From Megasphaera stantonii (GTDB taxonomy: Bacteria; Bacillota; Negativicutes; Veillonellales; Megasphaeraceae): a DNA stretch of 64,000 nucleotides. Under the pieces are notes generated by a model. That model did no database searches, was not told the origin of the DNA, and saw only the letters and a program-made list of their open reading frames with translations. The stretch covers positions 496,001 to 560,000 of the forward strand of contig NZ_CP029462.1 in assembly GCF_003367905.1 (NCBI RefSeq). The letters run 5' to 3'. Position 1 is the first letter of the stretch. Each line of letters opens with the position of its first letter. The position numbers and the translations under genes are program-made. Of this stretch, positions 49,632 through 55,389 are shown one piece after another.

Positions 49632-52052
49632 TTATGTTGTCGTAAAGACGAGCTCCTTTTTATCGAGGCTGTCCACCTGAAGGACGTTGCCCTCCTTTAA
49701 GCTGCCGCCCAGCAGCATCTCGGCAATGGGATCTTCTACCAGCTTCTGGATAGCCCGCTTCAGCGGCCTTGCGCCGTAGGCAAAGTCGGTCCCTTCCTGT
49801 ACCAGCACGTCGTCGGCTTCGGTCGTCCAGGTCATCTGCACGCCCTTTTCCTGAAGCCGTCTGCCCAGGTCTTCCAGCATGAGGGCCACGATGCGCCGCA
49901 GGTCCTCTGTTTCCAGTGGCTTGAAGACGAGCATTTCGTCGATGCGGTTGAGGAATTCCGGACGGAAAAACTTCTTCACGTCGTCGAGGATTTCCTTTTT
50001 AGCTATAGCGAAAGACGCCGCCTTGTCCTTGTCGGTTCCCGTCCCGGCTGCAAAGCCCATGACCGGCGCGCTCGGCTTCAAGTGGGACGCGCCGAGATTG
50101 CTGGTCATGATGATGACCGTATTGCGGAAATCGACTGTGCGGCCCTTGGAATCGGTCAACCGCCCCTCGTCGAGCACCTGCAGGAGCAGGTTGAAGAAAT
50201 CGCCGCTGGCTTTTTCGACTTCGTCAAATAAGACGACGCTGTACGGCTTTTCCCGCACGGCGTCGGTCAGCTCGCCGCCTTCTTCATATCCAACATATCC
50301 CGGCGGCGCGCCGACGAGGCGGGATACGCTGTACCGTTCCATGAATTCGCTCATGTCGATGCGTATCATCGCGTCCTGGCTGCCGAAAAGCTGACGGGCC
50401 AGCGTGCGGGCCAGCTCCGTCTTCCCGACGCCGCTCGGCCCCAGAAATAAGAACGAGCCGATGGGACGATTGACGTCTTTCAGGCCGGCGCGGGCCCGCC
50501 GGATCGCCTTGGCCACCGCCGTCACCGCTTCGTCCTGGCTGATAACCCGCTTATGCAGCTCTTCTTCCAGATGGAGCAGACGACGGGCTTCCGTTTCCGT
50601 CAGCTGCTGTACGGGGACGCCGGTCCACTGCGAAACGACGTCGGCCACGTCTTCTTCCGTCACGATGAGCTTCGCATCGTCATGGCGCTTCTTTTCCTGC
50701 TTCAGCGCGGCGATTTCATCGGCAATCTTCTTGCCTTCGTCACGCAGCGACGCGCACCGTTCAAACTCTTCACTAGCCAGAGCCGCGTCCTTTTCCTGTC
50801 GAATCGCCGCCAGCCGCTGTTCCAGGGCCTGCACGTCCTGCGACGGCGCGTAGACCTTCATGCGCACGCGGGCCGCCGCTTCATCGACGACGTCGATGGC
50901 CTTGTCAGGCAGATAGCGGTCCGAAATGTACCGGGCCGACAATTTGACGGCAGCCCGGACTGCTTCGTCGGTAATGCGCGCCTTGTGAAAGGCTTCGTAC
51001 CGATCCCGCAGGCCGAATACGATCTGTTCGGCCTCGCCTTCCGACGGCTCGCCGACGAGGACGGTCTGAAAGCGGCGGGCCAGGGCCGCGTCCTTTTCCA
51101 GATTTTTCTTGTATTCGTCGATCGTCGTCGCGCCAATGCACTGCAGCTCGCCCCGCGACAAGGCCGGCTTGAGGATATTGGCCGCATCCATCGAGCCCTC
51201 TACGGCTCCCGCGCCGATGAGCTGGTGAAGCTCGTCGATGAATAGGATCATGTCGTCGTCCTGCTGGACGGCTTCGATGACCTGCTTGATGCGGTCTTCA
51301 AATTCGCCGCGGTATTTCGTCCCGGCGACGAGGCTTCCCATGTCGAGGGAAAAGATACGCTTATGGGCCAGTACGTCGGGCACGTCGCCCGTTACGATGC
51401 GCTGGGCCAGCCCTTCGGCAATAGCCGTCTTTCCTACGCCGGGTTCGCCGATGAGGACGGGGTTGTTTTTCGTACGGCGGCACAAAATCTGGACGACCCG
51501 TTCGATTTCCCGGCTCCGACCGATGACCGGGTCGATCTTATCCTCCCGGGCCAGTTCGTTCAAATCGCGGCCAAATTCGGATAAGTCGATGGCCTGCCCT
51601 TCGGCTTCACCTCCGGCAGCGCCGTTATTCATGAGCTGGACGATTTTCTGCAGCAGCTCGTCTGGATTGACATCCATCTGCTCTAAAATCCGCCGGGCCA
51701 TGCAGCCCTGTTCCTGCAGCACGCCGGCCAGCATGTGCTCCGTGCTGATATATTGCTGCCCCAGCTGGTTCGCCGTCCGCACGGCCAGCTCCATGGTCCG
51801 CTTCGTCCGCGGCGTGAGCCGCAGGGCCGACGTCGCTTTCTCGCCGACGCCGACGGCGTTTTGAATCGCCCGGGTAACGTGCTCCGACGTCAGCCCCTGC
51901 TGTGCCAAAAACTGTCCGGCCATGCTGTCCGTATGGAGCACCAGGCCTAGCAGTATATGTTCCGTCCCGACATAATCATGGCGAAACGATTTTGCCGATT
52001 CCTGAGCATAGCGCAGTACCTTCTTCGCGTCGCTCGTAAATCGATTATTCAT
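49632..52052 (-). CDS. clpC: ATP-dependent Clp protease ATP-binding subunit ClpC
   Basis: An 806-residue AAA+ unfoldase. The N-domain has two Clp repeats (from [18 protein letters not shown]). The first AAA module has Walker [18 protein letters not shown], a UVR-type coil ([19 protein letters not shown]) sits in the middle, and the second module has [16 protein letters not shown]. The protein threads substrates into ClpP. McsB and adaptors direct it in Bacillus. The ATG at 52052 follows AAGGAAG by eight bases; an upstream GTG adds three residues. Last gene of the ctsR operon. Confidence 0.96.
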
Positions 52053-52067
52053 GTGTCTCACTTCCTT

Positions 52068-53153
52068 TTATAGGGACTCCGGAAGAGACGCCGCTCCGTC
52101 GCCTGCCGATACCATGCGGCGGATGACGGCCGCCCGTTCTCGTTCCATCTCCGTGTCTCCGAGTTCCCGCCCGGCTTCGGCCTGCAAGTATGCCGGCGTA
52201 ATAGCCGTCAGCAGTCCCTCGTACAGCTGAGCCGGCTTTGCAATGACGCCGGCGTCGATGCCGAAGCGCAGATCGCTCAACAGCGACAGCCCTTCCTGTT
52301 CGCTCATCAGCCAGGCCTGCGACAGCGTGCCGTAGGCCCGGCAGAATTTATCCTTCATCATGTCGCCGTCATGGGTCCACAAAATCTGACGGCAGTTTCG
52401 TTCTTCCTGCACGACCTGGGCGACGAGCTTGCGCAGCTGTCCTAAAATATCTTCTTCCGACACGCCCAGGGTAATCTGGTTGCTGATTTGGAATATGTTT
52501 CCAATATATTCGTCCCGTTCGCCGTACATGCCGCACACGGCGAAGCCGAATTTCGTAATCCCCTGGACGATACGGTTCAGCCTCTTCATCAAGACCAGCG
52601 CCGGTATGTGAACCGTGACGCCGGCAATAAGCCCTGTACCGGTAATCGACGGGCTGGACGTCAAATAGCCGAAGTCGTCGCGATAGGCAAAATTCAGCTT
52701 CTGTTCCAAGCAGTCGTCGATTTGAGACGCGTCGTCCCAGGCCTTGAGCAGGTCGAAACCGGCCGCCGCCGTCTGGATGCAGAAATGGTCCGTTTCGTTG
52801 ACCATGACGGCCGCAGCGCCGTCGTCCCGCACGATAACCGCCCGGGAAACAGGCTTTGTAATATGGGCGGCTGAGACGAAATGCTTGGCTGCCATCAGCT
52901 CCCGCTGCAGAGGCGTCAGCTCGTCCAAATCGATAAAGGCATATCTCCCCCGTCCCATAGCGCTTAAAAGAGGCGTCATGCGCCGCCCTTCGGCAAAGAC
53001 AGCCGCCAATTCGGTGTCGGACGCCCGCTGGGGAAAGACGTAGTTCTTTAAATTCCGGGACAGGCGGATGCGGCTGTCGACGACGACGTCGCCATAATCG
53101 CCAATCTGTTCCTGCCAGGGACTGAGGGGCTTGCGTAGAAATTCATACGGCAT
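52068..53153 (-). CDS. mcsB: McsB-like protein, probably catalytically inactive
   Basis: A 361-residue homologue of protein-arginine kinase McsB in the standard ctsR-mcsA-mcsB-clpC order. The SRIRLSRN motif (residues 27-34) and GYGE-like GMYGERDE region are recognisable, and alignment to Bacillus McsB (from memory) is nearly gap-free. Yet key phosphagen-kinase residues differ: NEEDHxR reads NETDHFC (Thr121, Cys125), the catalytic Cys in SCPTNVGTGxR is Ser167 and its Arg is Ile176, and the Arg of VRGIYGE is Cys207. It is therefore likely a pseudokinase that may act as an adaptor for ClpC or CtsR rather than phosphorylate arginine. It ends 16 bases before clpC. Confidence 0.88.
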   Translation of the reverse strand: MPYEFLRKPLSPWQEQIGDYGDVVVDSRIRLSRNLKNYVFPQRASDTELAAVFAEGRRMTPLLSAMGRGRYAFIDLDELTPLQRELMAAKHFVSAAHITKPVSRAVIVRDDGAAAVMVNETDHFCIQTAAAGFDLLKAWDDASQIDDCLEQKLNFAYRDDFGYLTSSPSITGTGLIAGVTVHIPALVLMKRLNRIVQGITKFGFAVCGMYGERDEYIGNIFQISNQITLGVSEEDILGQLRKLVAQVVQEERNCRQILWTHDGDMMKDKFCRAYGTLSQAWLMSEQEGLSLLSDLRFGIDAGVIAKPAQLYEGLLTAITPAYLQAEAGRELGDTEMERERAAVIRRMVSAGDGAASLPESL

Positions 53154-53156
53154 CGG

Positions 53157-53675
53157 TCAGCCCTCCCTTCCGCCAGCGTCAGGCTGCATTCTCTGCAGGG
53201 CCCGTATTTCGTCACGGACCTTCGCCGCTTCTTCGTACCGCTCTTCCTGCACCAGCTTCTGCAGATGCTGGCGGAGGCGCTTGATATGCGTCATCGTGCG
53301 GAAGACGCCCGTGCCGCGGTTAGGCACCTTGCCGTCGTGTTTCGTATGGCCGTGAATGCGGCGCAGCAGCGGCGGCAGCTCTTCCTTAAACGCTTCGTAG
53401 CAATCAGGGCAGCCAAAGAGCCCCGACCGGTTAAACTCGCCGTACGTCATGCCGCAGCTGGCGCAGCGCGGCTCTTCTTCCGACTGCCCTGTATAATCGG
53501 GATAGGCCATCTTGCGGAAAAAATCATTATTGATAATATTTAAGTCCTGAAACAGAGCTAACTTGCTATGTGTCTTTGCACACGCCGCGCACAAATGCAG
53601 ATCTGTGCGCCGCCCATTTTCGAAGGACGCAATATGGACGACAGCCTCTCTCTTTTTGCAAATATCGCACAGCAT
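53157..53675 (-). CDS. mcsA: McsA, zinc-finger modulator of CtsR/McsB
   Basis: A 172-residue protein with two CxxC zinc modules at the N-terminus (LCDICKK with LCAACAKTH) and a second pair (CASCGMTYGEF with GCPDCYEAF), then a basic linker and a C-terminal UVR domain (LQKLVQEERYEEAAKVRDEI, ends LQKLV, KVRDEI). In Bacillus McsA activates McsB. With McsB degenerate here, its role is open. The ATG at 53675 has GGAGGG eight bases upstream; GTG at 53684 is rejected. It ends three bases before mcsB. Confidence 0.92.
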   Translation of the reverse strand: MLCDICKKREAVVHIASFENGRRTDLHLCAACAKTHSKLALFQDLNIINNDFFRKMAYPDYTGQSEEEPRCASCGMTYGEFNRSGLFGCPDCYEAFKEELPPLLRRIHGHTKHDGKVPNRGTGVFRTMTHIKRLRQHLQKLVQEERYEEAAKVRDEIRALQRMQPDAGGREG

Positions 53676-53702
53676 CGGTATCACCCTCCTTCCGAAAATG
53701 GG

Positions 53703-54158
53703 CTAATGGGTATTCAGATGACGGAGGATCCGGCTGATGACGGCCAGCCGCTTCGCCTCGTCGTCGATTTCCTTGTACAATGCGTCAAAGGTCTGATGCA
53801 TGAGAATAGCTTCTCGGTTTGTCATGCGGTGCTGCTTGATAAGCTGGAATAAAAACCCGTCCAAATCGTCCAGGGTAATGCTCACCGCCGGCAGCCGTTC
53901 TTCCAGCAGCACAGGCGTGCGGTCCTGTTGTTTCGGACGCAGGCGGACGATGCGGACAAAGCCGCCCGAACCGCGCCGCGATTCGACCAAAAATCCCTTG
54001 TCGTTGGAAAAGCGGGTGCTCAGGACGTAGCTGATCTGCGACGGCGCGCAGTTGAGCTCGTCGGCCAATTCATTGCGGCGCAGCACGATGTTTTCTTCCT
54101 CTTCTTCCAGCAGTTTATGTAAAATAAATTGTTCAATTTTGTCAGCTAATATACTCAT
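53703..54158 (-). CDS. ctsR: Transcriptional repressor CtsR
   Basis: A 151-residue heat-shock repressor of clp genes. It starts MSILADKIEQFILHKL, with a winged helix containing ELADELNCAPSQISYVLSTRFSNDKGFLVESRRGSGGFVRI (ends ELADELN, GGFVRI); the RGGGG-type wing is RRGSGGF, which contacts DNA and senses heat. Start chosen at ATG 54158 with AGGTGA upstream. It is first in ctsR-mcsA-mcsB-clpC, and the promoter carries CtsR-like half-sites. Confidence 0.94.
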   Translation of the reverse strand: MSILADKIEQFILHKLLEEEEENIVLRRNELADELNCAPSQISYVLSTRFSNDKGFLVESRRGSGGFVRIVRLRPKQQDRTPVLLEERLPAVSITLDDLDGFLFQLIKQHRMTNREAILMHQTFDALYKEIDDEAKRLAVISRILRHLNTH

Positions 54159-54200
54159 CATAATCACCTGCTCTATTGGTTATCATACAAAAAGACGCCT

Positions 54201-54245
54201 ATTAGTTCATCTTTTTGACTTTATTATATTCGTCTTTTTGACTTT
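54201..54245 (-). repeat. Two 22-23-base direct repeats with CtsR-like half-sites
   Basis: Units at 54201-54222 and 54223-54245 both read ATTA..TTC.TCTTTTTGACTTT on the plus strand. On the minus strand each begins AAAGTCAAA, the CtsR half-site core (RGTCAAA). The usual tandem heptads with a 3-base gap are not exact here. They overlap the ctsR promoter. Confidence 0.6.
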
Positions 54246-54251
54246 TTGCAA
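54223..54251 (-). promoter_or_regulatory. ctsR promoter
   Basis: On the minus strand TTGCAA (54251-54246) and a perfect TATAAT (54228-54223) are exactly 17 bases apart. The spacer contains an AGTCAAA half-site, so CtsR binding would block RNA polymerase. Confidence 0.82.
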
Positions 54252-54332: not shown

Positions 54333-55334
54333 TTATTCTTTCGGCGCTTCGATAGGGTCATAATCAGCCGGCTTGTCGACGATAGCCGCCTCGTCCACGG
54401 CAGACGGGACGGGCGCGAACCCTTCGCTGAACAGGCCGCGGATCGCCTCGATATAGGCCGGTACGATTGTATCCATGAGCAGATACCGCTTCCGAAACAG
54501 ATTGCGCTTCTGTGACTTGATTTCATCGTACTTGCGCCGCTTTTCTTCGATAGGCAGGCGAATATACCACTGTTCCTTCCCGTCGGCTACAGCCCCTTCA
54601 TCGTTCCAGAAGTCGTCGAAATTCGTCTTCTTCGAACGGTTGCCCCGCAGCAGGTGGCTGTTCGTATAAAATCCCTCGTCGGTAATGGCATACATATCGC
54701 GGATGCCCAAGGTCTGGACGAAGATGCGCATAAGATACAGGATAAAATTCTTCGGCCGGTAGCCGAAGAGCTTTTTCGTCAGCGCCTTCGTCGTTTCCAG
54801 GCCGTGCTTTGAGCCCTGAATCGTGCCGATGTACATAGACGGAGCGCCGTCGGCATTGTAATCAAAGCGGAAGTTAAAATGGTAAATCATTTCGCCTTCA
54901 TGATATAAGTATAACGACAAAAATCCTTCCTTCCGCTGCCCCGTATCGAAAATCAGGCGGGCCTCCAGCGGCAGCGACTCGTCAGGCGATTTCCACAGCG
55001 TATAGCCCTTGCCCCAATACAGCTCATGAATGACTTCGTCGGAAAACATAGTCCGCAAAATCGTAAAATGATGAAGCAGCGCGTCCAGGCGCTGGCGCAT
55101 CGTCGAATTCTTAAACAGGAACACGCGGGTCATGACTTCCTGAAAATCCGGGTCCTGCCTGTCGAAAAAGCCCTTCATCGGCTCGTAGGCGTCAAAAAAA
55201 GAATATAATTCCTCAAATAAAGAGCGGTTCGTCACGGCGCGGGCAAAAAAAACGACGGCCCGCTTATTTTCCTGAAAATTGCGCGGACCGTAAATGGTAC
55301 GGGACAATCGCCAGAAATAGGATATGCTATGCAT
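54333..55334 (-). CDS. VirK/YbjX family protein (DUF535)
   Basis: A 333-residue protein of the VirK/YbjX (DUF535) family, so far described mainly in Gram-negative bacteria, where members affect outer membrane integrity and resistance to antimicrobial peptides. Recognisable blocks are LRTMFSDEVIHELYWGKGYTLWK (ends LRTMF, YTLWK), YIGTIQGSKHGLETTKALTKKLFGYRPKNFIL (ends YIGTIQG, RPKNF) and NFDDFWNDEGA. It has no signal peptide. Its presence fits the diderm envelope. The ATG at 55334 follows AAGGGGG; the TTG extension is rejected. Confidence 0.85.
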   Translation of the reverse strand: MHSISYFWRLSRTIYGPRNFQENKRAVVFFARAVTNRSLFEELYSFFDAYEPMKGFFDRQDPDFQEVMTRVFLFKNSTMRQRLDALLHHFTILRTMFSDEVIHELYWGKGYTLWKSPDESLPLEARLIFDTGQRKEGFLSLYLYHEGEMIYHFNFRFDYNADGAPSMYIGTIQGSKHGLETTKALTKKLFGYRPKNFILYLMRIFVQTLGIRDMYAITDEGFYTNSHLLRGNRSKKTNFDDFWNDEGAVADGKEQWYIRLPIEEKRRKYDEIKSQKRNLFRKRYLLMDTIVPAYIEAIRGLFSEGFAPVPSAVDEAAIVDKPADYDPIEAPKE

Positions 55335-55389
55335 GAAACAGCCCCCTTTAGGCAAAAATACATCGATGATAACCGTAGCAATAAATTAT

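Follow-up and report, generated by a model that had tools for sequence, protein, structure and literature searches.

Does the McsB protein encoded in the ctsR operon of this Megasphaera genome still act as an arginine kinase and, if it does not, in what role has it been kept? The stretch of DNA analyzed (64,000 nucleotides, here called the window) lies within a complete single-contig genome of 2.65 Mb (99.95% complete), grouped with named relatives from Megasphaera, Anaeroglobus and Colibacter. The operon is read from the minus strand in the order ctsR-mcsA-mcsB-clpC, with intergenic gaps of 3 to 18 bases (Table 1). A sequence-only reading of the window had placed mcsB correctly, leaving its strand unstated, and had described its product as a probable pseudokinase accompanied by intact McsA, CtsR and ClpC. 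All three partners are indeed intact.

Table 1. Features of the ctsR operon and codons of altered McsB residues (window coordinates).
Feature	Position	Strand	Description
clpC	49632..52061	-	Clp_N repeats and both AAA modules
mcsB	52068..53153	-	361 aa, P0001; McsB homologue without arginine-kinase active site
codon Met336	52146..52148	-	aligns with B. subtilis Arg337 of the pArg receptor pocket; Arg lost
codon Cys207	52533..52535	-	essential Arg207
codon Ile176	52626..52628	-	essential Arg176
codon Ile170	52644..52646	-	invariant Asn of CPTN motif in canonical McsB
codon Ser167	52653..52655	-	catalytic Cys167 in canonical McsB
codon Cys125	52779..52781	-	essential Arg125 in B. subtilis McsB
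codon Thr121	52791..52793	-	Glu in canonical McsB, NEEDH motif
mcsA	53157..53684	-	two four-cysteine zinc fingers, both intact
ctsR	53703..54167	-	class III heat-shock repressor
operon promoter	54214..54251	-	TTGCAA-17 bp-TATAAT; two AGTCAAA elements, CtsR half-site-like

One AGTCAAA element of the operon promoter lies in the spacer and the other just downstream of the -10 motif. The promoter and the first element recur in the genomes read from family f1 (f and g codes designate families and genera in the genome set, f1 being the family of the window genome), with a second GTCAAA at variable distance downstream. These elements were recognized by comparing the promoters of relatives; a scan with the strict CtsR consensus gave chance-level matches only and missed them. 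The second heptad departs from the consensus published for CtsR; the pair of elements is perhaps a variant operator. A DUF535 gene (54333-55355, minus strand) lies upstream of ctsR and is found near the operon in several relatives, in either orientation.

Active-site substitutions in McsB

The protein belongs to the McsB family by descent and fold, as seen in its domains and in the ctsR-mcsA-mcsB-clpC order. It matches Pfam PF00217 with 178 bits, and its predicted model (mean pLDDT 90.6) superposes on octameric B. subtilis McsB (6tv6) with a VIA-align Z score of 45.9 and an rmsd of 1.7 over 348 residues; outside McsB, the structures matched are those of ordinary phosphagen kinases. The predicted structure keeps the complete McsB fold, namely a phosphagen-kinase catalytic domain followed by the McsB-specific C-terminal helical domain. 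The protein thus resembles the McsB of B. subtilis, G. stearothermophilus and S. aureus (6tv6, 6fh1, 8wtb, 8gqd; 34-40% identity) in full-length fold, operon position, McsA and ClpC partners and C-terminal dimerisation/pArg domain. Unlike them, it lacks Cys167, Arg125, Arg176, Arg207 and the receptor Arg337, and it scores below every McsB equivalog cut-off of the NCBIfam protein arginine kinase models (335.9 bits against a cut-off of 385, and 323.2 against 500).

The substitutions were read from a comparison with the McsB structures 6fh1 (G. stearothermophilus) and 8wtb and 6tv6 (S. aureus/B. subtilis), as well as from two alignments of Negativicutes McsB, one with 30 sequences and one with 181. 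The changes are E121T, R125C, C167S, N170I, R176I and R207C, among which are all five replacements that the sequence-only reading had named. An alignment slip that would place the catalytic residues elsewhere can be ruled out, the flanking motif residues (N119, E120, D122, H123, T165, P168, G172-G174, G208, Y210, G211 and E212) being aligned without gaps. Nor has the catalytic cysteine been relocated: Cys125 and Cys207 vary among relatives, and neither is a conserved replacement. Chance or sequencing error is likewise excluded, as Arg125, Cys167, Arg176 and Arg207 are absent from all 16 McsB sequences of family f1. Position 167 is occupied there by Ser, Asn, Val or Met, never by Cys; replacements are C/V/I/Q at 125, I/T/V/L/S/F/K at 176 and C/S/G/M/Q at 207.

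Arg125, Arg176 and Arg207 have been reported as active-site residues of McsB; in the B. subtilis protein, R125K, R176K and R207K each abolish the detectable kinase signal in vitro, and C167S serves as the usual kinase-dead mutant (PMC7235348). With these four essential residues changed in 16 of 16 f1 members, it is close to certain, judging from the sequences, that the Megasphaera McsB has lost catalysis. The arginine of the phospho-arginine receptor is lost as well: it is Arg337 in B. subtilis (PMC8370763), and the Arg337/Asp338 pair has become Met336/Glu337 in the window protein, the arginine being missing from most f1 sequences. The losses are concentrated in the active site. Among the positions with at least 95% conservation in canonical McsB, 62 could be classed clearly as kept or lost in f1. 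Sixteen of them were lost, nine within the three catalytic motifs, to which 10 of the 46 retained positions belong (odds ratio 4.6, p = 0.025). Residues retained in f1 include R28, R30, R33 and R84 (all four invariant), N119, E120, D122, H123, P168, G172-G174 and, often, E212. In the window protein, R28, R30 and R33 are the equivalents of B. subtilis Arg29, Arg31 and Arg34, which are essential in vitro (PMC7235348).

A single PF00217 match was found in the window genome, and there is thus no second, intact McsB.

Distribution of degenerate McsB and of the YwlE phosphatase

The named genomes gave no match when queried with the window McsB alone, and an alignment query was used instead. An mcsB gene was found in 16 f1 genomes, the sole genome without a match being an 82%-complete assembly. 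The sequence-only reading had raised the prospect of fixation across Negativicutes. The alignments show Arg125, Cys167, Arg176 and Arg207 lost throughout f1 and contradict such fixation for the class: f2 and f3, from the same order (30 sequences), and most of the sampled deep-branching families keep the canonical site and YwlE. Degenerate McsB was found again in f4 (nine of nine sequences, with R30 lost too), in the one genome of f30, and in f14, where at least one core residue is lost in 27 of 62 sequences, among them every one of the 12 from genus g46 (Cys167 replaced by Tyr or Gln) and some from g23 (C167S). A tree of ClpC sequences joins f4 with the canonical f3 as sister groups (support 99) and sets f1 apart; these losses are therefore independent. 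The same tree requires eight changes of McsB state and five of YwlE. We conclude from these alignments that degenerate McsB is family-wide in the Megasphaera lineage and represents one of several independent losses.

Outside Negativicutes, degenerate sequences were found in Clostridium paraputrificum (L050, L258; R28K, R30S, R125N, C167T, R176K, R207N), in six Peptoniphilus/Anaerosphaera genomes and in five further members of that order. The open-access literature searched contained no paper on a natural kinase-dead McsB; Chlamydia McsB is described in the literature as a putative arginine kinase.

Loss of the kinase was then set against the presence of YwlE, the arginine phosphatase. The query used initially was what we took to be the B. 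subtilis YwlE sequence; the conclusions rest on a profile built from genome hits, all of them bearing CTGNTCRS, whose scores across 300 Negativicutes genomes fall into two classes. Absence from an incomplete assembly is weak evidence; most genomes used were more than 95% complete, and that of the window is complete. YwlE (a low-molecular-weight phosphatase with a CTGNTCRS loop and Thr11) is absent from the window genome, where only a relative of CHGNICRS type was found. The low-molecular-weight phosphatases of the genomes read from f1, f4 and f14 also carry CHGNICRS instead of CTGNTCRS. The former is the tyrosine-type loop, as reportedly follows from work on YwlE (Fuhrmann 2013).

Among 181 Negativicutes genomes with a McsB sequence, the 93 that have YwlE all have an intact McsB core. 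YwlE is present in none of the 53 genomes with a degenerate core, and 35 genomes (34 of them from f14) have an intact core without YwlE. A raw Fisher test of this association, which ignores ancestry, gives p of about 2e-22; counted as independent informative pairs, three to four are concordant and none discordant (sign test, p about 0.25). The distribution in f14 suggests that YwlE was lost first and that McsB decayed later, in several genera. Beyond Negativicutes, YwlE was absent from all six Peptoniphilus-type genomes tested. The rule is not absolute, since C. paraputrificum has kept a CTGNTCRS phosphatase alongside its degenerate McsB. As far as the open-access literature searched goes, the co-loss of YwlE and McsB across Negativicutes is new.

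Constraint on McsB and its partners

The mcsB gene is not a decaying pseudogene. Its dN/dS among close relatives is 0.03-0.11, in the range of ctsR, mcsA and clpC or slightly above, and the f1 genes are open and full-length. The pseudokinase proposal thus gains strong support from purifying selection, the family-wide loss of four essential residues and the missing YwlE. Within f1, McsB evolves faster than McsA and its conservation is lower by about 13 identity points, whereas in f2, a canonical family, it is higher by about 11 points; the constraint on f1 McsB therefore appears to be partly relaxed. Some residues are near-invariant and specific to f1 (e.g., C254, F161, K201 and F204). In the C-terminal helical domain, where canonical McsB has Ala and Arg, f1 has Cys254 (100%) and Trp281 (93%), possibly providing a new interface or a redox residue.

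Some genomes have dispensed with mcsB altogether. In two f4 genomes (L293 in G184 and L294 in G166) the operon reads ctsR-mcsA-clpC, with mcsB deleted and a diverged mcsA kept; these could represent an end stage of the same process. Since some members of f4 retain mcsA and clpC after deletion of mcsB, the pseudokinase is dispensable in that family. In an f18 genome (L299, G041) ctsR is directly followed by a Clp ATPase of about 910 aa with an N-terminal McsA-like zinc finger, an arrangement resembling ClpE; mcsA and mcsB are lacking. In two f2 genomes (L297 and L298, G172 and G178) and in f14 genus g60 (L296), ctsR lies beside a radA-like gene only and mcsA, mcsB and clpC have disappeared as a block, although YwlE persists in G172 and G178.

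These operons, together with McsB evolving faster than McsA in both f1 and f4, would fit a pathway on its way to disappearing, in which mcsB persists through its place in the operon or through residual structural roles. We regard this as unlikely for f1, given the low dN/dS of open, full-length genes, the retention of mcsB in 16 genomes with the incomplete assembly as sole exception, and the f1-specific near-invariant residues, which suggest that a function is retained. A sensor of nucleotides or phospho-ligands is also conceivable, the remaining arginines binding ATP or ADP and McsB reporting the energy state to ClpC or CtsR. All f1 sequences keep arginines 28, 30, 33 and 84 despite the loss of three others, but these three are reported active-site residues (PMC7235348). 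Moreover, f4 has lost R30 as well, and such a role seems very improbable.

Lastly, Ser167 might stand in for Cys and other groups for the lost arginines in a residual or altered kinase, slowly phosphorylating arginine or another residue. Some phosphagen kinases do not strictly depend on their cysteine. A related arginine kinase structure exists as a C271A mutant (1sd0), and R28, R30, R33, R84, E120, D122, H123 and often E212 are kept; nevertheless, residual activity can be given scarcely any credence, since three further arginines, individually essential in B. subtilis, are replaced by differing, nearly always uncharged residues across species, a variety that speaks for drift and not for new chemistry, and since the eraser YwlE is gone.

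The partners of McsB persist in f1. The eight zinc cysteines of McsA are 100% conserved in this family, and neither zinc finger varies in those McsB-containing groups of Negativicutes for which the reading was complete. In ClpC, the N-domain glutamates aligned with E32 and E106 are kept in f1 and f4, so that loss of the reader can be ruled out as an explanation for f1; the numbering follows what we take to be the B. subtilis ClpC sequence, and the conclusions rest on the alignments. In f14, the first pArg-binding glutamate motif has changed from GTEH to GTGQ in 63% of the ClpC proteins from genomes with a degenerate McsB core, mainly in g46 (L118-L132), possibly a matching loss of the reader. 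MecA was absent from all 29 Negativicutes tested, the B. subtilis and L. lactis positive controls being detected.

A proposed role of McsB as kinase-independent partner of ClpC and CtsR

The explanation that we favor, with a probability of about 0.7, is that arginine phosphorylation has been dismantled and that McsB stays as a pseudokinase, serving as a kinase-independent ClpC adaptor or CtsR modulator. Binding of McsA to McsB would persist, with the zinc finger and a conserved F-G-Y loop ahead of position 167 as contacts, and the complex would act stoichiometrically. MecA being absent, McsA-McsB may activate ClpC(P) or deliver substrates to it, with McsB as the remaining ClpC adaptor/activator of known type; the complex may also, or instead, switch partners under thiol or protein-folding stress and thereby free CtsR from its operator.

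According to a review, adaptors of ClpC have the further effect of activating its hexamer, and in B. subtilis free McsB takes CtsR off the DNA, a release by partner switching that is additional to the kinase role and has been described as a redox switch with McsB as the CtsR-releasing partner (PMC5506225). The B. subtilis C167S mutant has a weaker effect on MgsR half-life than an mcsB deletion (PMC7235348). Since this mutant keeps part of the effect on MgsR turnover, a kinase-independent function of McsB exists in the family. The mutant has the same Cys-to-Ser change as the window protein and is kinase-dead with its adaptor effect retained (PMC7235348); it carries one engineered change and keeps YwlE, whereas the Megasphaera protein is natural, has at least three further inactivating changes and is found without YwlE. 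The role proposed, kinase-independent activation of ClpC and substrate delivery, is that of MecA-type adaptors, a protein family unrelated to McsB and absent, as MecA, from the Negativicutes tested. Bacterial Ser/Thr pseudokinases (reviewed in PMC12599244) are likewise catalytically dead kinases kept for regulation, but belong to a different superfamily from the phosphagen-kinase fold of McsB.

We infer the ClpC-adaptor role from the conserved operon, McsA and the absence of MecA, and we consider a McsA-bound adaptor or CtsR regulator plausible by analogy. Several observations weigh against the favored explanation. The nucleotide-side and scaffold residues R28, R30, R33, R84, N119, D122 and H123 remain in f1, and binding of ATP is therefore possible; the pArg-reading glutamates of ClpC are also kept. 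McsB evolves faster in f1, and mcsB has been deleted in some f4 genomes. The YwlE correlation reflects few independent events and has its exception in C. paraputrificum.

Under the favored explanation, arginine phosphorylation would be absent from the Megasphaera lineage. For genomes of the Megasphaera and Peptoniphilus types, those of f4 and many of f14, the annotation "protein arginine kinase" is no evidence for this modification. It is unsettled whether B. subtilis McsB serves ClpCP quality control chiefly as a writer of pArg degrons or as an adaptor (PMC5506225, PMC7235348). Family f1 provides a natural experiment on this question, with several kinase-dead changes, the phosphatase removed and the protein conserved. 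At somewhat less than even odds, YwlE loss repeatedly precedes or accompanies the inactivation of McsB, and McsA-McsB-ClpC repeatedly reverts to a phosphorylation-free adaptor system. If so, arginine phosphorylation would be an optional addition to a conserved adaptor and not its core function.
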